Shown here piece by piece: positions 6,300 to 41,671 of a stretch of 64,000 nt of DNA. The stretch comes from an uncultured Prevotellaceae bacterium (GTDB taxonomy: Bacteria; Bacteroidota; Bacteroidia; Bacteroidales; Muribaculaceae). Below the pieces are notes generated by a model that was given only the letters and a program-made list of their open reading frames with translations, had not been told where the DNA came from and did not search any database. The position numbers were made by a program, and so were the translations under genes. Position 1 is the stretch's first letter. Each line of letters begins with the position of its first letter. The stretch is from the NCBI GenBank assembly GCA_900318335.1, contig ONKF01000017.1, positions 8,416 through 72,415 of the forward strand, written 5' to 3'.

Positions 6300-7865
6300 C
6301 TATTTAGTTGTTATGTTTGAAGTGTCATTCAGTGAGCGGTCTTTCTTGAGCCAGATGGCGAACCAGACCACAGCCACAGCAATCACGGCGATGACTACCC
6401 AGGGCGAGAGGTCCTGGCGGCCCAGGGCGAGAGGCGAAGCCGTGAGGAAAGACACACCCACCACGGTCATGAACACAGCGGGTATCAAGGTGATGATATA
6501 GGCCTTGTGGTTGCGGGCCAGATAGACGGTAATCATCCACAGGGTGAACACCGACAGGGCCTGGTTGGACCAGCCGAAATATTGCCACAGCACGTTGAAA
6601 CCGTTAGGATTCTCCAATTGCCAGATGAGCAACATCAATGAGGCCAAGAACAGGGGCACGCTGATCATCAAGCGGCGCACCATGCTCTTCTGCTCAAAAT
6701 GCAGCGCCTCGGCAATGATGAGGCGTGCGCTGCGGAATGCCGTGTCGCCACTCGTGATGGGGGCAGCCACCACACCCAGCACCGCCAGTGTACCGCCGAA
6801 GATGCCGAGCCAACTGGCGCACACGAAGTTAACCACCTCGGGTGCTGAAAAATACTGGATCAAGGTCTTGCCGTCGGCCAACTGCACCTGGGCCATGAAT
6901 TCATTAACAGCCTCGGGGCTGACCACCTCTTTCCAGCCACCATAGTAGAAGAAATAGGACGAGACGGTCGCCCAGATAAGGGCCACAAGACCCTCGGTAA
7001 TCATCGCGCCATAGAATACCGGTCTTGCCAGGTGCTCACTCTTCAGGCAACGGGCCATGAGGGGGCTCTGGGTAGCATGAAATCCGCTGATGGCGCCACA
7101 GGCGATGGTAATAAACAGGCAGGGGAAGAAAGGATTCTTCTTGAAGAAGGCGCTAACGCCCAGGGTGTCCTTGCCGTCGATGACGTGACTCTGGGTCCAC
7201 TGTGACAAGTCGCCCATGTTCCACAACTCGGGCAAATGAGGCATCTTGACGAACAGCCCCACGAGCAGTCCAGCCGCCATCACCAGCAAGGCGATGGCAA
7301 ACAGGGGATAGATGCGGCCGATGATCTTGTCGATGGGCAGGAGCGTGGCCACTATATAGTAGCAAAAGATGGCAACAATCCACCAGATGGTAGAGGCCTC
7401 GCCACCCCACATATCCTTGAGGATGAGCGCTGGGCTATAGACAAACACGGCACCCACCATCAGCAGCAGGAGCACAGTGAAAATAAGCATCACGGTACGG
7501 GCACCGCCACCCAGGTACTTGCCGATGAGCGTGGGCAGGTTGGCACCATCGTGGCGCAGCGAGAGCATACCGCTCATGAAATCGTGCACCGCACCGGCAA
7601 AGATGCAGCCCAACACGATCCATAGATAGGACGCCGGACCAAACCACATACCCATGATGGCACCGAAGATGGGTCCCGTTCCCGCAATGTTGAGGAACTG
7701 GATCATAAACACTTTCCACGTGGGCAATGCCACATAATCCACACCGTCGGCAAGGCGCACGGCAGGCGTCTCACGGTCGTCGGGGCGCATGATGCGCTCC
7801 ACCACAGCACCATATACCAGATAGCCCAACACCAGGGCCACAAGGCTAATAATAAAGGATATCAT
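6300..7865 (-). CDS. cstA: Carbon starvation protein CstA family transporter
   Basis: This 521-residue integral membrane protein has well over ten hydrophobic spans. CstA proteins are permeases of the CstA/BtsT family, linked in enterobacteria to peptide and pyruvate uptake in starvation. Family signatures are visible early: QFLNIAGTGPIFGAIMG near residues 56-72, then VLGCIFAGAVHDFMSGMLSLRHDG. At 521 residues it belongs to the shorter form, compared with about 700 in E. coli. It has its own promoter box and a terminator hairpin, so it is probably transcribed alone. The name is firm, while the substrate in this organism is inference. Confidence 0.88.
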   Translation of the reverse strand: MISFIISLVALVLGYLVYGAVVERIMRPDDRETPAVRLADGVDYVALPTWKVFMIQFLNIAGTGPIFGAIMGMWFGPASYLWIVLGCIFAGAVHDFMSGMLSLRHDGANLPTLIGKYLGGGARTVMLIFTVLLLLMVGAVFVYSPALILKDMWGGEASTIWWIVAIFCYYIVATLLPIDKIIGRIYPLFAIALLVMAAGLLVGLFVKMPHLPELWNMGDLSQWTQSHVIDGKDTLGVSAFFKKNPFFPCLFITIACGAISGFHATQSPLMARCLKSEHLARPVFYGAMITEGLVALIWATVSSYFFYYGGWKEVVSPEAVNEFMAQVQLADGKTLIQYFSAPEVVNFVCASWLGIFGGTLAVLGVVAAPITSGDTAFRSARLIIAEALHFEQKSMVRRLMISVPLFLASLMLLIWQLENPNGFNVLWQYFGWSNQALSVFTLWMITVYLARNHKAYIITLIPAVFMTVVGVSFLTASPLALGRQDLSPWVVIAVIAVAVVWFAIWLKKDRSLNDTSNITTK

Positions 7866-8022: not shown

Positions 8023-9735
8023 TTACCAACCGGGGTTCTGCTTGGTGCCTTCCTTGCTCAGAGTAATCTGGTTGCTGGGAATCGGGCACAAGTAGTACTT
8101 ACTGTTGAAGATGCGGTCCTTGCTGACGGGGATGATGTAGCCGTTAGCATCCAGGGTGAAGGCCTCGTCGAGGTCGGGCACACCACCCAGGTAAGCACCG
8201 CGGTTGATGTTGGGATGATCCTGGGTGTCGAGGAGGTCGAGCTGATGCCAGCGGATGAGGTCCCAATAGCGGTACCAGTTGTCGGCCATCAACTCGCAAC
8301 GACGAGCACGGCGGATTTCCCACAGCAGGTTGCTCACGCCCATGTTGTTGTAGGGGTCGGCAGCGGGAGTCATGGTCATACCGGGCAGACCAGCGCGAGC
8401 CTGCAGCTTGTTGATGCTGATATCGAGGTCGCTCTGGGTGAGGTTACCCAGCTCGGCCTTGGCCTCGGCATAGTTCAGATAGATGACAGCCAGCCAGTAG
8501 ATGGGAGCATCGGTGTAGTTCTTGCCCGTGTTGATGCGGTAGTCCACTTCCATTGCGGTATTGTCATACTTGGCAATGTTGTAGCCAGTCGATGAGGTCA
8601 TCAGCATGGAGTTGGCACGAATCCAACCATGGCCCTTGAAGCACAGATACGGATCGAGCAGGACGCTCAGTCGCTTGTCGCGCTTTGAGAGCATGTTCTG
8701 GATGCTGTAAGCATTGTTGGTGGGATCCAGCACGGGATGGTCATCGGTGTTGAGCGAAGTGGTAGCCAGGGGCTTGCCGTCGAGGAACAAGAATGCCTCA
8801 ACAGCATCCTTGCTGATACCGCGCTGTTGTGAAGACGAAGCGGTATAGTCGGCAGTCGAGTGCATCACCTGATCCTTCACATAGTTGCGGAAGAAGATGA
8901 CCTCCGAAACCTTGCTCAGGTCAAGCGAGTTATAAACCTCGCCATAGTTGGCGGTGAGGCTATACTTGCCCGAGTTCATAATCTGCTGTGAAGCGTCAAC
9001 ACACTCAGTGAGGTACTTCTGGGCACGGGTAGGATCGGCAGCCTTGCCGTTCTCGTCGGCAGTGCGGTACTTGCAATAGGTACCCTCAAACAGGCAGATG
9101 TCGCTCTTCATGGCAAGTGCCATGTCCTTGCTCCAGGAATTCTTGCCACCATTGCCCAGGTGCTGGATAGCAAAGTTCAAGTCCTCAAGCACGAAGTCCA
9201 TGACCTGGTCACGGTCGGTGCGGGGACCATAGACTACATCACTCTGAGCCTCAGGGTCGAGAATGACCTCCTTGAGCAGAATCACGTCACCATACATGCG
9301 AACGAGCTGATAGTACTGCCAAGCACGGTTCAAGCGGCCAACAGCCATGTAATAGTTCTTCTCGCTCTCAAGCAGGGTCGAGTTATTCAAGCCGGTCAAC
9401 ATATAGTTGCAACGGCGGATCTCGGTATAAGGATCACTCCAGTAGCTGGAAGTGCCAGGAACGGTGGTGAACATCCAGTCATCAAAACTCGGATTCACCT
9501 GGTCATCACTGAGGCTCTTGAAATAGAACCAGCCAGAACCACCGCCAGTACCGTAGCCCACGTAGTTGCCATAGAGGACATTACTGTAGCTGGCTACCTG
9601 GTTGGCGTTATTCCAGAATTCCTGGCCAAGCTCGAACTTGGTGCGCTCGCTCTTGGAAAGCATATCATCGCATGAAGACAACGACAGCACGGCAACGCCC
9701 AGTCCACACAATATAATTGATTTCAATGATTTCAT
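8023..9735 (-). CDS. SusD/RagB-family outer-membrane lipoprotein
   Basis: This 570-residue surface lipoprotein is the lid and substrate-binding partner of the upstream SusC-type transporter. The signal peptide ends in the lipobox with Cys22 (MKSLKSIILCGLGVAVLSLS, then SCDD). The SusD_N-type helical segment and the C-terminal SusD/RagB region are present (EIRRARRCELMADNWYRYWDLIRWHQLD, and the common ending CPIPSNQITLSKEGTKQNPGW). The length is normal for the family. It follows the SusC gene after 98 bp in the same direction and is followed by a strong terminator. No glycoside hydrolase, ECF sigma or hybrid regulator is adjacent, so this is an orphan pair and the ligand could be a glycan, a peptide or something else. 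Confidence 0.92.
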   Translation of the reverse strand: MKSLKSIILCGLGVAVLSLSSCDDMLSKSERTKFELGQEFWNNANQVASYSNVLYGNYVGYGTGGGSGWFYFKSLSDDQVNPSFDDWMFTTVPGTSSYWSDPYTEIRRCNYMLTGLNNSTLLESEKNYYMAVGRLNRAWQYYQLVRMYGDVILLKEVILDPEAQSDVVYGPRTDRDQVMDFVLEDLNFAIQHLGNGGKNSWSKDMALAMKSDICLFEGTYCKYRTADENGKAADPTRAQKYLTECVDASQQIMNSGKYSLTANYGEVYNSLDLSKVSEVIFFRNYVKDQVMHSTADYTASSSQQRGISKDAVEAFLFLDGKPLATTSLNTDDHPVLDPTNNAYSIQNMLSKRDKRLSVLLDPYLCFKGHGWIRANSMLMTSSTGYNIAKYDNTAMEVDYRINTGKNYTDAPIYWLAVIYLNYAEAKAELGNLTQSDLDISINKLQARAGLPGMTMTPAADPYNNMGVSNLLWEIRRARRCELMADNWYRYWDLIRWHQLDLLDTQDHPNINRGAYLGGVPDLDEAFTLDANGYIIPVSKDRIFNSKYYLCPIPSNQITLSKEGTKQNPGW

Positions 9736-9833: not shown

Positions 9834-12800
9834 TTACTTCACGATAATCTCGCAGATGGAAACGCGGTTCCAGCTCAGTTCATCAAACATGTTGCTGATG
9901 CCCTGACCCTGGGCGTTGATGCGCTTAGCATCGATACCATACTTCTTGACAAGCATATCCTTCACGCTGGCGGCGCGGCCGTTAGCGAGGGTGATGTTGC
10001 GCTCCAGGGGACCGTCCTTGGATGCATAACCGTTGATGGTGCAGGTAGCCTCGGGATGGCTCTTCATGTAAGCGGCGATGCGCTCCACGTTGGGCTGCTG
10101 GTCGGCATACACTGCCATCGAGTTGATGGGGAAGTGCACCAGGATAGTCATGTACTGCAACGACTTGTCAATCATGCCGCTCTTGCTCTTCTGGCAGTCG
10201 GTCAGATCCTTCTGCAGCTGGCTGTTGCGGTTATTGGCAGCATTGAGCTGGTTCTGCAGGTCGGCGATGCGGGCCTTGTAGGTGTTCTCGGCATCGGCGA
10301 GCTGAGCACGCAGGTCATTAATCTGGGCATTCAGGGCGCTGTTGTCGGCGGGAGCGGCAACAGAAGCGCTGCGGGTAGTGCCGAAGGTCACTTGCAGACC
10401 CACCGACCAGGTGCGGTTGATGGGATAGGTGCGGCCCCAAGTGCCATAGCCAAGTGAACCCTGGCCGGCATTCATCTCGGGATCGATGGGGAGCTTGCCA
10501 CTGCCCTTGTGGAGCAGACAGAGGTTGTTCACGCTACCGTAGAGACGGAGCTTCTCGATAAAGGCCTTGCGGGTCAAGTTCTCGGGCAGGGTATAACCCA
10601 GCGTGATGTTCTTGAGGCGCAGGTAGCTCATGTCCACGAGGTACTTGGTCTGGGGATAGTAGTTGTGGCAACCACCCTGGCCAGAAAGGCCGACCACGTT
10701 ACCAGCGAACTCGTTGCCGGGGAACAGGCAGGGGAAGTCGTTGCTCTCGCTGATGTTCACGAGGCCGTTGTCGGGATCATAGATATTGTACTTGGTCTGG
10801 TTGGCATAGATGGCCAAGTCAGCCTCACGCATCATCGGGAAGACGAATGCCGACTGGGTCCACATGTCGCGCTTGCCCACGCCCTGGAAGAACAGGTCGA
10901 GGTCAAAGCCCTTGAAATTACCACCGACGTGGAAGCTGTACTCATAGCGGGGCATCATGTTACCGATGACCTTGAGGTCACCATGGTCTTCCTCGGTGCC
11001 CTTACCGCCGTCAATCGTGCCGCTGTGGTCAAGATCCTTATACTTGATGTCACCAGGGCCAAACACGAAGGTCTGGGTCTGGATACCAGTCTGGTCGGCT
11101 ACGCCGGGAGCATAAATCCAAGAGCCGTCAGGATTCTTGCCGGTAAAGTCGTTAACAGTGAAGTAACGGTCGGTCTCAAAACCCCAGATGTCACCCCAGG
11201 TCATGCCCTCATAGGCATAAGCACTGTTGCAGGGGTGGCCAATCAGGTGAGAGTCGTTGTTCCACTTGGTCACCTTAGTCTTAGCGTCACCGACGCTGGC
11301 GGTGAAGTAAGCGCCAAAGTCCTTGTTGAACTGCTTGCGCACGTTCAGGGTTGCTTCCCAACCACGGGTGCGGAGCTTACCGTTGTTGGTTACAGGAGCT
11401 GCAGCACCAACACTGGGAGGCAGTGCAGTGCCAGGACCCAGCATGTCGCTGGTGGTGCGCTGGTACCAGTCAAAGCCCATGGTGACCACGTCACCGAACA
11501 GACCCAGGTCAATACCGGCATCCATGGTGGTGATGCGTTCCCAAGTCAGCGAAGAGTTCACCCAGCTGGGCAAGCCCAGGGCGGTCACCTCAGCGCCATT
11601 CTCGTTGAGCCAATAGATATCGCCCTGAGCAATGGGGCTGATGAGCGACTGGAACTGGTTCTGTCCAACGGCCTCGTTACCGATGGTACCATAGGAGAAG
11701 CGCAGCTTACCGTTGTCCACAATGTGGCGAAGACGGTCCCAATACTTCTCCTGGGTGAAGCGGTAACCTACCGAGCCCGAGGGGAAGAATGCCCAGTGGT
11801 CATTCTTGGGGAAGCTTGATGAACCGTCATAGCGTCCGTTCAACTCGAGCAGATAGATGCCCTTGTAGTCATAGTTGATACGTCCGAAGTAACCGGCAGT
11901 AGCCTTGTCATAGGTGCTGCTGTTGATGTTCCACTTGGTCTGGTCGCCATAGGTCAAAGCCAGCTCAGGATACTCTTCACTATAGAGCTGGGGCCTGTAA
12001 GCGTAGAAGTAGTCACTGCTATAGTTGTCACCATTGACACCCACCATGACGTTGAAATTGTGAACATCATTGAAGCTCTTGTTCCAGTTCAGGGTGGCGT
12101 TGGCAGCCCACTTGTTGCTCTTGCTATTGTCACGCCAAGCATTGGTATTGCCGGCGTTCACGATCCACTGGGGGGTCACACCGCTCCAGTTGTAGCCATA
12201 GACGGTGTGGTCACTTGAACCGCTGTTCATGTTACCGATCTCATAGGTAAAGTCGGCCTTCAAGGTCAGGTCCTTGGTGATGTGTACAGTGGTGAACGCG
12301 GTCATGCTCAGGCGGTCCATCGTCACGTTCTTGCGGGCAGCCTGCTTCTGCATGGCAATCACGCGGAAGTCGAGCTGTTCACCGGTGGCGGGATCGGCAA
12401 TCGTGCCGCTGGGGATGAAGAATGAGCCCCAGCGCCAGATGTACTGATACATGTTGTTCCAGGTATCGGCACGTGAGAAGTGGCGGCGTGAGAAGTTGAT
12501 GCGTGCACCAACGGTCAACCAGTCGGTCAAGTCGGTCGAGATGTTGGCAGCGGCATTGTAGCGCTTACGCATAGCCGGATTCCACTTCATGTTGTCCTCC
12601 TTGTAGTTGTAACCGAAGGACAGATAGTAGGTAGTGCGGTTGCTGGCACCACGAACCGACACGTTGTGACCCTGTGAAGGAGCGGCGTGGTTGTACCAGA
12701 TGTTCTGGATGTCATAGTCGGCATAGTACATGGGCTGGCCGCCGTCAAAGCGGTAATCACCCACGTTGCCGTCGCTCTGCCAAGCATTCATCTTGCCATA

Positions 12801-13751
12801 GCCGCGCTTCTTGCCGCCGTTCTGCTGCTTCCATGCCTCGGCATAGGGCAGCAACTGGTCGAAGTACATACCGAAGAGCTCGACAGCGTCAGAGCCGGCA
12901 CGCTTCTTGGCCATGATGGCCGACTTCAACTGAGTGGGAACATCGGGGAAGTCGGGCAGATAGGTGGGATCATCCCAACCGAAGTTGTTGCTGTAGCTGA
13001 CGGTGGCACGCTCGCCCTTCTGACCACTCTTGGTCGTGATAAGCAGTACACCAAATGCTGCACGTGTACCGTAGATGGATGACGAAGCAGCGTCCTTGAG
13101 TACCGAAATCGAAGCGATGTCGTTGCCATTGAGCATCTGCAGACCGTCCATATCGCTCACGACACCGTCGATCACAATCATGGGAGGAGTTGACTGGTCG
13201 TTGCTCAGCGTACCGACACCACGGATGCGCATGGTGGGATTACCGTCGATATCACCGCTGGCATTGATAATGCTCAGTCCGGGAACAGCACCCTGCAGGG
13301 CACGGGAAACATCCTGCTCGGGGCGGGAGTTGAAGGTCTTGTCGACATCAACAGTCGATACGGCACCGGTGAGGTTCACCTTCTTCTGGGTACCGTAACC
13401 CACAACAACGAGTTCGTCGAGGAGGGCCTTATCCTCGGCCATAACAATGTTCATGCTGGCTGCTGCACGCGTGGTCACGGTCTTGTAGCCGATGAACGAG
13501 ATCTGGAGTTTGGCATTGACGCCTGCTCTCAACGAGAAGTTACCGTTCACATCGGTAGATGTGCCACGGGTCGTTCCAACCTCGACAATGCTGGCGCCGA
13601 TGACGGGTTCTCCCTGTTCATCGACAACGCGGCCTGTCACAATGCTGGTGGCGGTACTGGCCGCCACCTGGGGCGCAGGTGTTGCTTGGGCCTGGTAACA
13701 GGTACCTCCCAACATCAACAATGCGCCTAAAAGAGCTAAATGTCTTTTCAT
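9834..13751 (-). CDS. SusC/RagA TonB-dependent transporter fused to a coiled coil and an OmpA-like domain
   Basis: This 1305-residue protein starts at the ATG at 13751 (an in-frame GTG lies 6 bp upstream). The order is: signal peptide (MKRHLALLGALLMLGGTCYQ), carboxypeptidase-regulatory-like domain about residues 38-110 (VTGRVVDEQGEPVIGASIVE), TonB box-like DELVVVGYG, plug domain (ALQGAVPGLSI, IRGVGTLSN, VLKDAASSSIYGTRAAFGV) and a 22-strand-type barrel ending near WSVGLQVTFG. A normal SusC would stop there. This one continues with an Ala/Pro linker, a heptad-rich segment of about 60 residues (about 1136-1198) and an OmpA-like domain of about 107 residues (GYASKDG, LANGRAASVKDML, GQGISNMF). The extra part would be periplasmic and could bind peptidoglycan. 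Barrel and plug identity are certain; cell-wall binding is inferred from the OmpA family. Confidence 0.92.
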   Translation of the reverse strand: MKRHLALLGALLMLGGTCYQAQATPAPQVAASTATSIVTGRVVDEQGEPVIGASIVEVGTTRGTSTDVNGNFSLRAGVNAKLQISFIGYKTVTTRAAASMNIVMAEDKALLDELVVVGYGTQKKVNLTGAVSTVDVDKTFNSRPEQDVSRALQGAVPGLSIINASGDIDGNPTMRIRGVGTLSNDQSTPPMIVIDGVVSDMDGLQMLNGNDIASISVLKDAASSSIYGTRAAFGVLLITTKSGQKGERATVSYSNNFGWDDPTYLPDFPDVPTQLKSAIMAKKRAGSDAVELFGMYFDQLLPYAEAWKQQNGGKKRGYGKMNAWQSDGNVGDYRFDGGQPMYYADYDIQNIWYNHAAPSQGHNVSVRGASNRTTYYLSFGYNYKEDNMKWNPAMRKRYNAAANISTDLTDWLTVGARINFSRRHFSRADTWNNMYQYIWRWGSFFIPSGTIADPATGEQLDFRVIAMQKQAARKNVTMDRLSMTAFTTVHITKDLTLKADFTYEIGNMNSGSSDHTVYGYNWSGVTPQWIVNAGNTNAWRDNSKSNKWAANATLNWNKSFNDVHNFNVMVGVNGDNYSSDYFYAYRPQLYSEEYPELALTYGDQTKWNINSSTYDKATAGYFGRINYDYKGIYLLELNGRYDGSSSFPKNDHWAFFPSGSVGYRFTQEKYWDRLRHIVDNGKLRFSYGTIGNEAVGQNQFQSLISPIAQGDIYWLNENGAEVTALGLPSWVNSSLTWERITTMDAGIDLGLFGDVVTMGFDWYQRTTSDMLGPGTALPPSVGAAAPVTNNGKLRTRGWEATLNVRKQFNKDFGAYFTASVGDAKTKVTKWNNDSHLIGHPCNSAYAYEGMTWGDIWGFETDRYFTVNDFTGKNPDGSWIYAPGVADQTGIQTQTFVFGPGDIKYKDLDHSGTIDGGKGTEEDHGDLKVIGNMMPRYEYSFHVGGNFKGFDLDLFFQGVGKRDMWTQSAFVFPMMREADLAIYANQTKYNIYDPDNGLVNISESNDFPCLFPGNEFAGNVVGLSGQGGCHNYYPQTKYLVDMSYLRLKNITLGYTLPENLTRKAFIEKLRLYGSVNNLCLLHKGSGKLPIDPEMNAGQGSLGYGTWGRTYPINRTWSVGLQVTFGTTRSASVAAPADNSALNAQINDLRAQLADAENTYKARIADLQNQLNAANNRNSQLQKDLTDCQKSKSGMIDKSLQYMTILVHFPINSMAVYADQQPNVERIAAYMKSHPEATCTINGYASKDGPLERNITLANGRAASVKDMLVKKYGIDAKRINAQGQGISNMFDELSWNRVSICEIIVK

Positions 13752-13952
13752 AAGCACGTTTGAATTTGTTAATAATTATGATGTTACTTAAATTGTCTTC
13801 TCTTGCCACTGGAAAACACTTCAAACAAACAGTTTGGGTTTATCATTAATAATGTGCAAAATTCTACATTTTTTTTGAAATAGCAAAGAAATAGGCCGTT
13901 TTTTACAAATGCAAACGTTAAATTTCTCAAAAAACTGTACAAGACACCAAAA

Positions 13953-35661: not shown

Positions 35662-36001
35662 CTGCTCCTTACACCCGCATCACATTATTTACTCTTATCG
35701 AGCGGCCAGAGGCAAAACATGTAATCAGGTCATGCCTTTGTTAATTATTCAAAAAAAATAAAGTTAAAACATAACAAAATTGTGTGATTTTTTCTAAAAA
35801 ATAGGCATTTTGGACACTTTATGGGCATTTTTCTCGATAAGTTGTTTGTAGTATTAATTATTTTTTGCAATTTTGCCATTTGAAATTCTTGATGCAATGG
35901 TAAAGTCTGTTAAAATGGATGCTTCAACTTGTTATCAAGCCAATTAATAACATTAAGATATTAACCAATTCATTAACTTCAATTTTTAAAAGCAAGTGCG
36001 T

Positions 36002-39000
36002 ATGAAAAAACAATTAGCACTGTTGGCCGCCCTGGCTATCGCCTGCGGAGCTCCCGCTGGGATGACATCGCTTCCCAGCACGGGTTTCACAGCCAAGGGT
36101 ACCAACCGCGGTACCGCCACCGATGTGGACGGCAAGTATTCAATCAACGCCAATCGAGGTGACGTGCTCATCATTTCCTACGTGGGCAGCAAGCCCATGG
36201 AGGTTACCGTGGGCAGCAGTGCCATGGACATTGACATGGCAGCCAATGACCAGGTCCTCGATGAGGTTGTTGTAACCGCACTCGGTATCCGCAAGGACAA
36301 GAAGTCGCTGGGTTATGCAGTCGATGACTTGAAGGCCGAGGAACTGATGCGCAACAAGAACACCAACGCCATCAACTCACTTGCCGGTAAGATCGCCGGT
36401 GTAAACATCACCCAGTCGTCTGGTGCCGCAGGTTCGGGTGCTCAGATCATCCTGCGTGGTGGTACATCACTGGAGCGCGACAACCAGCCGCTGTTTGTTG
36501 TGGATGGTGTCATCTATGACAACTCCACCTCGATTATCGGTAACTCTGGCTTTGATGGCATGACCGGTGTGGCAACCACCAACTCCAACCGTGTGATGGA
36601 TATCAATCCCGAGGATATCGAGAGCATGAGTGTACTGAAGGGCCCCGCCGCAGCTGCGCTTTACGGCTCAAAGGCTGCCAACGGTGTTGTCATCATCTCC
36701 ACCAAGAAGGGTAAAGAAGGCCACGTGGAGGTTAACTTGAACGCTAAGTTCATCACCACCTGGGCAAAATACCTTCCCGAGACCCAAAAGAAATACAAAC
36801 GTGGTTATGTATGGCAACACTACAATGAAGATGGTTCTTACAAGGATTTCACCTATGATGACAAGACCTATTCATCGTGGGGAGCTCCCGCCGCTCCTGG
36901 CGAGACCGTGTATGATAACATCGGTAACTTCTTTGAGAGAGGTAATGCTTGGGACACCAACGTGAGCGTTAGCGGCGGTACCAAGTACAATAACTTCTTC
37001 CTGAGTGGTTCATTCTATGATCAGGACGGTATCATTCCCACCACGGGTTATACCAAAACCACCTTCCGCTTCAATGGTGAGCAACGTTTTGGCCATTTCA
37101 CCTTTGGTGCCAATGCCGCCTATAGCCAAGCCCGCACTACAAAGACTCTGACCAGTGCCGCTCTTTACGGTGATAACGGCCAGGGTACGATGTACACAGT
37201 GTATAACTGGAACCCATTTGAGGACATGAGGAACTATCTCAATGAGGACGGTTCGCGTGCCACCTTGCGTCCTGACTTGATGCCATGGGAAGAGCGCAAT
37301 AATCCTTACTGGATTCTGAAGAAGGACCGTCTGACTGATGATACCGAGCGTTTCACCGGCAACTTCAACGTGAAGTGGGACATCTTTGACTGGTGGTGGA
37401 TCAGCTACCGCATGGGTGTTGACTCTTACACAACCGAGAACACTAACAAACTCGCTTCTGGTGGTACCCACAAGGAGAACTGGAAGAACGGTATGTACAG
37501 TGAGAACTCTATGCGTTACCGTTACCTGTCCAACAACCTGATGACCAACTTCAACAAACAGTTCGGTGACTTCAACTTCAACCTGCTGTTAGGTGGTACT
37601 ACCGAGTACACCAAGCGCCAAAGGAACTCCCGCATGGCTTGGAACTTCCAGGTACCCGACTTCTTCTCGTTTGACAATGCGCTGAAGGAGGATCGCGATT
37701 TCTCAAATTACAAGAGCCGCAAACGTTTGGCTGGTGTCTTCGGTGAGTTCCGTATTGATTGGCGCAGCGCTCTGTTCTTGACAGTGACTGGCCGCAACGA
37801 CTGGTCTTCTACTCTGCCCAAGGAAAACCGCAGCTACTTCTATCCTAGTGTGAGCGGTGCTATTGTGTTCACCGAACTGATGGGTGACTCTCGTCCCGAT
37901 TGGCTGACCTTCGGTAAACTCCGTGCCAGCTGGGCTAAGGTAGGTAAGGATACCGATCCTTATGTAACAAACACCTATCTATGGCCCGTGGGCACTTACC
38001 TGAATGGTATGACCGGTGTGGGTAACACTTGGACCACTGGTAACCCCTTCCTGAAACCTGAGATCACCAAATCGACCGAGGTGGGTATTGAAATGCGCTT
38101 CTTCAACAACCGCCTGCACTTCGACTATGCTTATTATACCAACAACTCCATCAACCAGATCATGGAGCCTCGTCTGTCTAACTTCATCGGTTACATCCTA
38201 CGTAAGGTGAACGCTGGTGACGTTTACAACAAGGGTATGGAGCTCACGATTGGCGGTACACCCATCAAGACTCGTAACTTCACTTGGGAAACCAACCTGA
38301 TTATGAGTGGCAACCGCGGTACGGTGAAGAACCTCATCGACGGTGTGGACATCCTCTACGTGACCGACGTACAGGTGGGTAGCGCACGTGCTGCCTCATT
38401 CAATGGCGGTAACTTTATGGCCATCAGCGGTAGCGAATTAGACCGTGACCCCAAAGGCAACCTGATTCTTGATGACAACAACATGCCCACTGGTGGCAAG
38501 AACGATAAACTGGAAATCGGTAACCGCGAGCCCAAGTTCTCCGGTGGTTGGAACAATACCCTGACCTGGAGGAACTGGACTTTCAACATGTTGTGGGAAT
38601 TCCGTGTAGGCGGCCATGTTTACAACGGCACCCTTTACTCGATGGTTACCAATGGTACTGCTGCTTTGACCGAAGGTCGTAACCACCTTTCAATCACTGG
38701 TGTTCACCAGACTGGAACTCAAGATGTTGTTGGCGAAGATGGCAAAACGACTAAGGTTCCCGTTTACTCAGATCCTACGACTTATGAATTTGAGGCCGGT
38801 AAGCTCTATGACTATAATGGCAAGCAGACTCCGGGTGAGTGGATCATCAACAACTACTACACCGATTATTACTTGAAAGAGAGCACAAACTTCATGAAGA
38901 AGGTTAACGCACTGCGCCTGCGCACCATTTCGCTCTCTTATGCCCTGCCCAAGTCATTACTGGCACGCACCAAATACATCAAAGCTTGCTCGCTGACCGC

Positions 39001-39706
39001 TACAGGTACCAACCTGCTGCTGTTTACCAACTACGATGGTGATCCCGAGGTAGCTGCCGCTGGTGCTGGTTCGATTGGTTCAAGCTCCGTAGGTATCGAC
39101 TACTGCGGTGTTCCCTCAACGGCAAGTCTCTCCTTCGGTGTCAACATGACCTTCGGCACTGACTATGAGGCTCCCGCCCGCGTGAACAATGTTGAGCTTG
39201 AAAACCTGAACGGCCAGATCAACGACCTGCGCAACCAGCTTGCTAACGCTCAGAACGCCAGCAACGCCCGCATTGCCCAGCTCGAGAATGACCTCGCTGC
39301 TGCCAACAAGGCTCTGGCTAACTGCCGCAATGACCTGAATGCTGCCAAGAATGCCGCTCCCAAGGTGGTTGACAACAGCAAGCAGTACATGAACGTCCTG
39401 GTTCACTTCCCCGTGAACAAGACCGGTATCACCGCCGACCAGCGTGCCAACGTTGAGCGCGTGGCTGCTTACCTGAAGAGCCATCCCGGAGCAACTTGCG
39501 AAATCAAGGGTTACGCTTCGCCCGAGGGCAACCAGGAGAACAACATCAAGCTCGCTAACGGCCGCGCCGCCAGCGTGAAGGATATGCTCGTTAACAAGTA
39601 TGGTATCGCTGCCAACCGCATCAACGCTGCTGGCCAGGGTATCAGCAACATGTTTGACGAATTGAGTTGGAACCGCGTTTCCATCTGTGAGATCATCGTG
39701 AAGTAA
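36002..39706 (+). CDS. Second SusC/RagA transporter with coiled coil and OmpA-like domain
   Basis: This 1234-residue protein has the same rare design as the one at 9834-13751. The signal peptide (MKKQLALLAALAIACGAPAG) runs almost directly into the second half of the carboxypeptidase-regulatory-like domain (KGTNRGTATDVDGKYSI), so the first strands of that domain are missing. DEVVVTALG is the TonB box-like phrase; plug phrases are INSLAGKIAGVNI, ILRGGTSLERDNQPLFVVDG and VLKGPAAAALYGSKAANGVV. The barrel ends near SLSFGVNMTFG. Then follow a coiled coil of about 60 residues (about 1065-1127) and an OmpA-like domain (about 1128-1234: GYASPEG, LANGRAASVKDML, GQGISNMF). Codons are richer in GGT, CGT, TCT and ACT than in neighbouring genes, which may mean high expression. 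Confidence 0.92.
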   Translation: MKKQLALLAALAIACGAPAGMTSLPSTGFTAKGTNRGTATDVDGKYSINANRGDVLIISYVGSKPMEVTVGSSAMDIDMAANDQVLDEVVVTALGIRKDKKSLGYAVDDLKAEELMRNKNTNAINSLAGKIAGVNITQSSGAAGSGAQIILRGGTSLERDNQPLFVVDGVIYDNSTSIIGNSGFDGMTGVATTNSNRVMDINPEDIESMSVLKGPAAAALYGSKAANGVVIISTKKGKEGHVEVNLNAKFITTWAKYLPETQKKYKRGYVWQHYNEDGSYKDFTYDDKTYSSWGAPAAPGETVYDNIGNFFERGNAWDTNVSVSGGTKYNNFFLSGSFYDQDGIIPTTGYTKTTFRFNGEQRFGHFTFGANAAYSQARTTKTLTSAALYGDNGQGTMYTVYNWNPFEDMRNYLNEDGSRATLRPDLMPWEERNNPYWILKKDRLTDDTERFTGNFNVKWDIFDWWWISYRMGVDSYTTENTNKLASGGTHKENWKNGMYSENSMRYRYLSNNLMTNFNKQFGDFNFNLLLGGTTEYTKRQRNSRMAWNFQVPDFFSFDNALKEDRDFSNYKSRKRLAGVFGEFRIDWRSALFLTVTGRNDWSSTLPKENRSYFYPSVSGAIVFTELMGDSRPDWLTFGKLRASWAKVGKDTDPYVTNTYLWPVGTYLNGMTGVGNTWTTGNPFLKPEITKSTEVGIEMRFFNNRLHFDYAYYTNNSINQIMEPRLSNFIGYILRKVNAGDVYNKGMELTIGGTPIKTRNFTWETNLIMSGNRGTVKNLIDGVDILYVTDVQVGSARAASFNGGNFMAISGSELDRDPKGNLILDDNNMPTGGKNDKLEIGNREPKFSGGWNNTLTWRNWTFNMLWEFRVGGHVYNGTLYSMVTNGTAALTEGRNHLSITGVHQTGTQDVVGEDGKTTKVPVYSDPTTYEFEAGKLYDYNGKQTPGEWIINNYYTDYYLKESTNFMKKVNALRLRTISLSYALPKSLLARTKYIKACSLTATGTNLLLFTNYDGDPEVAAAGAGSIGSSSVGIDYCGVPSTASLSFGVNMTFGTDYEAPARVNNVELENLNGQINDLRNQLANAQNASNARIAQLENDLAAANKALANCRNDLNAAKNAAPKVVDNSKQYMNVLVHFPVNKTGITADQRANVERVAAYLKSHPGATCEIKGYASPEGNQENNIKLANGRAASVKDMLVNKYGIAANRINAAGQGISNMFDELSWNRVSICEIIVK

Positions 39707-39802: not shown

Positions 39803-41671
39803 ATGAAACTATTCAAATCAATTATACTGTGTGGTTTGGCTGCAGTGGCATTGTCGCTCACTTCCTGCAACGATTGGCTTGATGTGAACAATGACCCCAA
39901 CACGCCGACCTCGGCCGATGCCAGCTACTCGACCCGCATGACCTTCATGCAGCACTACAGCATCGCTGCCTACATGATCCCATCGTCCAACACTGCATAC
40001 TATTGCGGACAGTTGGCTACATATACTGGTGCTCAACAGACGGCGGCTATGAATTGGAACCTGGGTGGCAGCAACCGTGCCAATAATGCCCAGCAATGGT
40101 TCCTCGTTCCCGTGGGTGGTAATCTGCCCGACCTCTACAATAGCGCTATGGAAGACGGTGCTTATCACTATGCTGCTATGGCTTGCTATTTCAAGGCTTT
40201 CGGTTTCATGAATTTGGCTGACCTCTTCGGTGAGGTGCCCTTTGATGAAGCCTTTGGCGATGCAGTGGCTCCCAAGTACAACACTGGTAAGGAAGTGTTC
40301 ATGGGTTGCATCAAACTCATTGATCAGGCTATCGAGCTCTTCCAGAGGGAACAGGATCCTAATGCACTCCCCCTTAGCGATGGCGACATGTGGAACGGTG
40401 GCGACACTGGCAAATGGATTAAGTTATGCTATTTCCTGAAAGCACGTTGGCTCAACCACTTGAGCAAGAAACAAGCTGGTAGCTATACCGAGGGTAAGTA
40501 TGACCAGGCTGCTATTCTGGACTGCCTCTCCAAGGCCATGCAGAGCAATGCAGACAACACTGTTGTTTATCACGAGGACAACAACAGCACCACCCATGAC
40601 CATGAGGGATGGGATGAGCCTGTTGACTATTCAGCACTGTATTCGTGCATCGGTATGAACAACAACCGTATGTTCGTTTCCAAGTGCTTTTATGACAACC
40701 TGACAAACTTTGCCGGTAATGGTGTGGAAGACCCCCGTGCCGACAAGTTCATTCCCTGGGCTCGCTCAGTCAAGAGTGACGATACTCCTGACGAAATCAA
40801 GTGGAGTGAAGATGGCAAGTGGCGTCGTTCGCTGGGTGTTGACCTGACTACCAACATCATCAGCAACGGTGGTCCTTTCCCCTCACTGTACAGTGGTAAC
40901 ATCCCTGGCTGGTATTGTAACACTACAGATAATGCACGTCAAGGCGACACCATCTATGTACAGGGTCAATCTGGCTCAACTGGCTACGGTGGCGGCAAGG
41001 ATATGCTCATGCGTAGAACAGCTGGCTATGACGAGTCAGCTATCTCTGGCGTTTTCTGGACACGTCCCACTTCTCCCACAGTGGTTGGTTCTTATGCCGA
41101 GGCTTGTATGATCAAGGCTGAGGTGCTCTTCCGTCAAGGTAAGACCACTGAGGCTTACAACGCCTATCGCGAGGGTATTAAGGCAAACATTGAGTTTGTT
41201 AACGACATGTGCAAGCGTTGGGTCGCTGATGATCCTACATTGGTTTCCTGCCCCTCCTTCACTCCGATGGAGCAGGCCGATATTGACAACTTCCTGAACA
41301 ACGGTATCGGCACCGCTAGTGACCTTACCATGGGCAAGATTATGACTCAGAAGCAGATCATCGTGTTCTTCACCACCGAGATGTGGCTTGACATGCGCCG
41401 CATGGACTACAATCCCGAGTACTTCTTGGGATGGCAAAAGCCGTTCATGTATCTGAATACCGCTAGTTACAAAACCTACTGTCCCGACGGCAAATATCCT
41501 CGCCGCTGGAACCAGGCTTCCTACGAGAAAGACTATAACACGACTAATCTCGATGCCATCGGCGATCTAGTGCCTGGTGCACGTGATCTCCCAGTTGGCG
41601 AGAATGGCAAGTGGTATCTCTCGGATCAGATCTGCACCCTCCCCGTATGGTGGGACAGCGACCAGGAGTAA
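39803..41671 (+). CDS. SusD-family outer-membrane lipoprotein (SusD-like_2 type)
   Basis: This 622-residue lipoprotein is the surface partner of the SusC-OmpA transporter just upstream. The lipobox Cys is Cys22 (MKLFKSIILCGLAAVALSLT, then SCND). The phrase DWLDVNNDPNTPTSADASYS right after the lipidation site is typical of the SusD-like_2 branch, while the partner at 8023-9735 is of the RagB/SusD branch, so the two pairs differ in the lid protein although their signal peptides and spacers are alike. The C-terminal part contains TEMWLDMRRMDYNPEYFLG. A strong terminator follows. The ligand is unknown. Confidence 0.9.
   Translation: MKLFKSIILCGLAAVALSLTSCNDWLDVNNDPNTPTSADASYSTRMTFMQHYSIAAYMIPSSNTAYYCGQLATYTGAQQTAAMNWNLGGSNRANNAQQWFLVPVGGNLPDLYNSAMEDGAYHYAAMACYFKAFGFMNLADLFGEVPFDEAFGDAVAPKYNTGKEVFMGCIKLIDQAIELFQREQDPNALPLSDGDMWNGGDTGKWIKLCYFLKARWLNHLSKKQAGSYTEGKYDQAAILDCLSKAMQSNADNTVVYHEDNNSTTHDHEGWDEPVDYSALYSCIGMNNNRMFVSKCFYDNLTNFAGNGVEDPRADKFIPWARSVKSDDTPDEIKWSEDGKWRRSLGVDLTTNIISNGGPFPSLYSGNIPGWYCNTTDNARQGDTIYVQGQSGSTGYGGGKDMLMRRTAGYDESAISGVFWTRPTSPTVVGSYAEACMIKAEVLFRQGKTTEAYNAYREGIKANIEFVNDMCKRWVADDPTLVSCPSFTPMEQADIDNFLNNGIGTASDLTMGKIMTQKQIIVFFTTEMWLDMRRMDYNPEYFLGWQKPFMYLNTASYKTYCPDGKYPRRWNQASYEKDYNTTNLDAIGDLVPGARDLPVGENGKWYLSDQICTLPVWWDSDQE

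Follow-up and report, generated by a model that had tools for sequence, protein, structure and literature searches.

Closest described systems

To our knowledge, importers of the SusC kind have been regarded as free of the cell wall, and the tethers that hold the outer membrane to the wall as separate proteins. The SusC/RagA proteins, among them the levan SusC BT1763 and RagA, consist of an N-terminal CarbopepD domain, a plug and a barrel, act together with a SusD partner and usually end at the last barrel strand. Here we describe a gene at positions 9834-13751 (minus strand) of a 64,000-nucleotide stretch of DNA from an uncultured Prevotellaceae bacterium (contig ONKF01000017.1; the whole stretch is called the window below), whose product has the same domains and the same kind of partner but, unlike the usual members, continues for 182 residues beyond the barrel, into a long helix and an OmpA-like domain (the tail). 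Barrel, linker and OmpA domain in one chain are familiar from OprF and OmpA of Proteobacteria, in which the barrel is a small porin; their OmpA domains (5u1h and 3td3) share the fold of the tail, and Omp38 differs from it in having both the Asp and the Arg in its pocket. The OmpA-like porins of Bacteroidales, such as Pgm6/7 of P. gingivalis and the stand-alone porin of the genome that contains the window (L046 4184-5497), have both the helix and the OmpA-like domain, and the porin of this genus is the nearest relative of the fusion tail; these proteins differ in what appears to be a small barrel, where the fusion has a large TonB-dependent importer. The stalk of OmpM from Veillonella is not known to be related to the fusion tail, nor is the OmpM channel known to be TonB-dependent. 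OmpM is functionally the nearest known system that we met: it likewise combines an outer-membrane uptake channel and a wall tether in one protein, and it differs in that its porin is a trimer and carries a periplasmic stalk (PMC10628300).

A SusC with an OmpA domain was not found in a literature search confined to open-licence papers, in agreement with the preliminary description of this DNA, which knew of no described family built in this way. A SusC that ends in a probably porin-derived tail appears to be a new variation on a known kind of protein, of interest mainly because at least five types of transporter within a single genus share this tail.

A SusC transporter that ends like a porin

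The gene is a single open frame of 1305 amino acids (aa), for which a GTG at 13757 is a possible alternative start. Pfam recognises CarbopepD_reg_2 at residues 38-116, the plug at 125-235, the TonB barrel at 506-883 and, in the same chain, OmpA (PF00691) at 1207-1287 (45.0 bits against a cut-off of 27.2), while the NCBIfam SusC profile TIGR04056 spans residues 38-1123 (10383..13640, minus strand) with 801.9 bits against a cut-off of 368.25, covering profile positions 3-981 of 981. The fusion claimed in the preliminary description is thereby borne out, as is its extension of about 190 residues, which amounts to the 182 residues after Phe1123. Most of the tail-less relatives looked at terminate in the Phe equivalent to this residue. 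Gly1124 opens a Ser/Ala-rich linker (residues 1124-1137; 10341..10382, minus strand), followed by the long helix (residues 1138-1192; 10176..10340, minus strand) and the OmpA-fold domain (residues 1201-1305; 9837..10151, minus strand).

An AlphaFold2 model of the tail, computed from a 35-row alignment, reached a mean predicted local distance difference test score (pLDDT) of 77.9 and a predicted template modelling score (pTM) of 0.53, and shows a 55-residue helix followed by an OmpA fold in the order beta-alpha-beta-alpha-beta-(short helix)-beta. Foldseek matched this model to OmpA domains, namely 3td3_A of Acinetobacter (E 6e-11), 5u1h (Pseudomonas OprF) and 9uu2 (rank 8), with template modelling (TM) scores on the target of 0.69-0.80, and the fold that a structure prediction had been expected to reveal behind the barrel is indeed found there. 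The helix had been described as heptad-rich and about 60 residues long, which finds moderate support: in the best phase, 8 of its 10 bulky hydrophobic residues lie at a/d positions, a result matched by 49 of 20000 shuffles.

One tail on at least five types of transporter

Whereas the preliminary description noted a single protein, whose frame is real, it missed a second SusC-OmpA fusion in the window, 22 kb away on the plus strand (35996..39706; 1236 aa, ATG at 36002; PF00691 match at 39407..39649 with 49.5 bits), as well as the range of related transporters in the genus. A third fusion of the same genome lies outside the window on the same contig (L045 10911-14321). Among the 14 SusCs of this genome above the TIGR04056 cut-off, fragments below it being excluded, three carry the tail, all of them on the window's contig, and the other 11 are tail-less.

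The comparisons of tails and bodies drew on 92 distinct fusions and on 31 stand-alone porins (369-438 aa) whose helix and domain are of the same type; these are the porins within the loci examined and a subset of all porins found. In all 92 fusions the joint is the same Phe-Gly, immediately after the last barrel residue. After omission of eight fusions with bodies shorter than 900 aa, the remaining 84 bodies fall into five clades, A1 (13 bodies, with the 1305-aa protein), A2 (16), B (22, with the second fusion of the window), C (18) and D (15), each of which has a tail-less SusC sister. For A1 and A2 these sisters are SusCs of the same genus; for B they are one SusC of another Muribaculaceae record and one that adjoins an A1 fusion (L108); for C and D they are distant SusCs, with a support of 0.667 for D. 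Approximately unbiased (AU) tests, based on 16 of the 84 fused bodies and all 23 non-fused rows, rejected a single clade of all fused bodies (p-AU 7e-66) and also rejected A1 with A2 (1.9e-5) and B with D (1.5e-4), both of the latter groups having been named after the tree was seen. The subset tree requires five state changes, all forced by starred branches, in which gains are indistinguishable from losses.

The tree of the tails, from which four fusions with tails ending before profile position 176 were omitted (three cut by the contig end, one with an early in-frame end), unites all 88 remaining fused tails in a single clade apart from the 31 porins (support 0.998). IQ-TREE recovered the same clade with 99% from 39 of these 88 tails and all 31 porins; the roots were imposed, on porins of other genera in one tree and at the midpoint in IQ-TREE. 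Nearest to the fused tails stand the four porins from fusion-bearing genomes; beyond them come porins from another five species of the genus. The most likely donor is the lineage's own stand-alone porin, since porin-like matches occur throughout the family and fusions, among the matches listed, only in this genus. Two B bodies carry A-type tails, and a single clade of B tails is rejected (p 2.6e-4). Taken together, these trees make the tail look younger than the splits among the bodies that bear it, which would mean that it was passed on between bodies: it was probably captured once and then handed from one transporter gene to another. By the same comparisons, a single tail is shared by five or more types of transporter within this genus.

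By which route might it have travelled? In 27 same-genome pairs of unlike body type, drawn from six genomes, DNA identity over the last 660 nucleotides (nt) of the body is 43-57%, close to background, but it amounts to 78-96% over the OmpA part and 83-97% over the last 150 nt. All six pairs that were read along the DNA show the identity rising inside the tail. In two of the three A-B pairs, 80-99% identity persists for about 150 nt beyond the stop codon, across the gap and the SusD signal sequence, before it falls to background; the third reaches 75% in the sole aligned stretch past the stop, and the B-C and B-D pairs 52-79%. In one genome (G164), two contigs terminate inside the tail at the same residue, as expected for an assembler at a repeat. 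The shared tail DNA would, we infer, have arisen as SusC/SusD genes recombined with one another or underwent gene conversion.

Distribution

Fusions were found in at least 38 of 101 genomes searched within the genus, with at least 104 rows in which a single frame spans the joint. The named relatives that carry them are uncultured Bacteroidales metagenome-assembled genomes from several projects, recorded as Muribaculaceae, Prevotellaceae, Porphyromonadaceae or Bacteroidales; according to their record titles they come from sheep, goat, roe deer and water buffalo, and the RUG records among them are presumably rumen genomes. Since the fusions recur in so many genomes, and in named records of several projects, an assembly artefact is ruled out. 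In six of the genomes whose arrays were read, types A and B stand back to back, D lies beside B and C lies apart, and each type precedes its own kind of SusD, as judged by eye; type D was not found in the genome that contains the window. In G164, a B-type fusion extends over two overlapping frames of 500 and 707 aa (L044 1-3581, minus strand), which reflects a frameshift or an assembly error.

Searches beyond the genus met no SusC-OmpA fusion among the matches listed. A family search with the tail (198 genomes) gave, among the matches listed, frames longer than 700 aa only in G000, G187, G193, G164 and G180, all of which belong to the genus, and an order search with the tail (247 genomes) gave 28 rows at E<=1e-16, four of them from the genome itself and the other 24 in frames of 379-471 aa. 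When the order was searched with body and tail together (295 genomes, at most six candidates scored per genome), a stop-free frame covering both was seen, among the matches listed, only in the genome itself; one porin, with a frame of 424 aa, has an overlap of ten positions with the joint. A search of the phylum for any OmpA domain (80 genomes) yielded no TonB plug or barrel in the five long frames read by Pfam, which comprised all four listed frames of at least 900 aa and one of 875 aa, the longest being read over 889 of its 960 aa, and from which a frame of 895 aa (L173) was left out. Distant SusC-OmpA fusions of independent origin may exist outside the genus. The OmpA domain was also met in another setting, at the C-terminus of a proton-pumping pyrophosphatase (PF03030, 881 bits) in one frame of genome G607 (L170 599-3370, minus strand).

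What might the tail do?

The reading that accounts best for these observations, and to which we assign a probability of roughly 0.6, is that the fusions are SusCD importers with a periplasmic spacer and a wall anchor. The sequences support a history in which, in part of this ruminant-gut genus of Bacteroidales, the helix and the OmpA-like end of its own stand-alone porin were attached behind the final residue of a SusC barrel; from there the tail reached at least five SusC types, most likely via recombination among SusC/SusD genes. Because the end of a SusC barrel presumably faces the periplasm, the helix, with a calculated length of about 8 nm for its 55 residues, could serve as a spacer by which the OmpA-like domain reaches the peptidoglycan. 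This domain would hold the peptidoglycan non-covalently through a variant pocket consisting of Ser, an acid two residues further on, and a conserved Asn and Arg. Each SusCD importer would in this way double as its own tether between outer membrane and wall, held in position and resisting the pull of TonB.

The pocket deserves closer attention. Diaminopimelate binding by Acinetobacter OmpA is reported to depend critically on Asp271 and Arg286 (PMC6572160), and PapS of Rhodospirillum reportedly loses this binding when the corresponding Arg is mutated (PMC11369160). In an alignment with 3td3, the place of Asp271 is taken by Ser1244 (10020..10022, minus strand) and that of Arg286 by Arg1259 (9975..9977, minus strand). 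Of the 92 tails, all 90 that match the pocket pattern have the Arg, as does one of the remaining two; the other is cut before it. An Asp or Glu stands two residues after the Ser in all 92 tails and all 31 porins. One of the 31 porins also departs from the pattern, and by eye it and the two deviating tails all have the Ser. Because the parent porins share the exchange of Asp for Ser, it is, by this comparison, no sign of decay in the fusion. The preliminary description, which had spoken of a complete OmpA domain and had tied the wall anchor to a conserved Asp/Arg pocket, was right about the fold and the PF00691 match; at the pocket itself one of the two classic contact residues is kept and the other is replaced, which is half of the outcome that it had named as refuting the anchor. 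The architecture that it described stands, and the anchor stays the best reading. That the tail binds peptidoglycan is a prediction that we consider fairly probable.

Several points weigh against a wall anchor or against the history proposed for it. Every one of the 92 fused tails and the 31 porins has Ser where the diaminopimelate-contact Asp would stand, and peptidoglycan-binding data for this type of porin were looked for and not found. The coiled-coil character of the helix is only moderate, and the model of almost the whole protein (residues 106-1305) is weak (pLDDT 58.8), its best Foldseek matches being levan SusC and RagA with TM scores on the target of about 0.7. Long branches make it unsure which relatives stand closest to clades C and D, and a B-like SusC without a tail lies next to an A1 fusion (L108 4310-7564). 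Finally, one A1 fusion that is not cut by a contig end lacks the last part of the OmpA domain owing to an early in-frame end (L114 3944-7933, plus strand); a second uncut fusion ends slightly early (L134).

Could the tail serve assembly rather than anchoring? This is the main rival reading: its helix might bundle with those of other tailed SusCs or of the stand-alone porin and so cluster transporters, as the heptad pattern, the like helix in that porin and the absence of the wall-pocket Asp would allow, and as the trimers reported for the OmpA-like Pgm6/7 of P. gingivalis would suggest (PMC6112661). However, the ratio of nonsynonymous to synonymous substitution rates (dN/dS; medians per type) is 0.16-0.23 for the helix as against 0.10-0.17 for the OmpA part, marking the helix as the less constrained of the two, and its span varies in length, being mostly 60 residues in A1, A2, B and D and 63 in C (range 60-65, with 11 of 92 unmeasured); a spacer therefore fits better than a bundle, and we regard clustering as unlikely. 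A smaller chance still is left to the idea that the tail is hitchhiker DNA, shared by neighbouring SusC/SusD genes, spread by recombination and of little use to the cell. The high identity that runs from the tail into the SusD signal sequence in two of three A-B pairs, the frequent occurrence of these genes in arrays and the one fusion without its domain end would suit this idea, but the dN/dS is far below 1 in all five types, in 88 of 92 fusions the tail runs to position 176 or beyond in a profile of 181 positions (three of the other four being cut by contig ends), and a useless passenger sits poorly with its presence in at least 38 genomes. With medians of 0.07-0.22 for the bodies, body and tail are by this measure both under purifying selection, for which reason the transporter presumably still works.

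Finally, a single SusC-OmpA gene may have been duplicated, its bodies having diverged fast or the tail-less sisters having lost the tail, with no transfer of tails at all. The arrays do suggest duplication, B and D have a like signal peptide, and the counts of state changes are blind to gain versus loss. Such a history is nonetheless disfavoured, and we consider it very improbable: the AU tests reject one clade of fused bodies as well as the two pairings chosen post hoc, tail-less SusCs of the same genus are the sisters of A1 and A2, and the B bodies with A-type tails, like the rejected clade of B tails, point to exchange. The wall-anchor reading remains the preferred one, and it may be taken a step further, although only tentatively and with somewhat less than even confidence: the tail may be a wall-anchor cassette, a single captured porin end that was gene-converted onto unrelated importers and made up to four transporters per lineage into wall tethers, with the stretch from the tail to the SusD signal peptide acting as the recombination handle of the SusC/SusD arrays.

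Neighbouring genes

The 1305-aa fusion is directly followed by its partner, a SusD/RagB lipoprotein (8023..9735, minus strand; PF07980, 109.8 bits), and the second fusion of the window is accompanied by a SusD-like lipoprotein (39803..41671, plus strand; PF12771, 111.9 bits). The CarbopepD domain of the second fusion seems to be short of some 20 residues at its beginning, where the profile match sets in only at position 21, and differs there from the other B-type fusions, as judged by their starts. Directly after the A-type SusD, in the window (6300-7865, minus strand) and likewise at several related loci, lies a gene for CstA (carbon starvation, PF02554). This neighbour was considered as a hint of peptide uptake and set aside as too weak, resting on eight loci, the window included, among which there are two pairs that each represent one contig counted double. 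The cluster of the C-type fusion in the same genome is adjoined by a gene for an MscS-type mechanosensitive channel (L045 5769-8333, minus strand). Ribosomal protein L2 (PF00181) was not found in this genome despite a completeness of 92.9%, its gene probably missing from the assembly, and a test of expression by codon bias was abandoned.

Implications

What would it mean for a lineage to place the same porin end on several of its importers? Several tethered transporters with the same part would provide a natural experiment that asks whether fixation to the wall is possible for a TonB-driven importer, or is of benefit to it. The end of the barrel, with its final Phe, can act as a clean joint for the addition of a domain, and these fusions illustrate a route by which a domain may travel among paralogous transporters within one genome.

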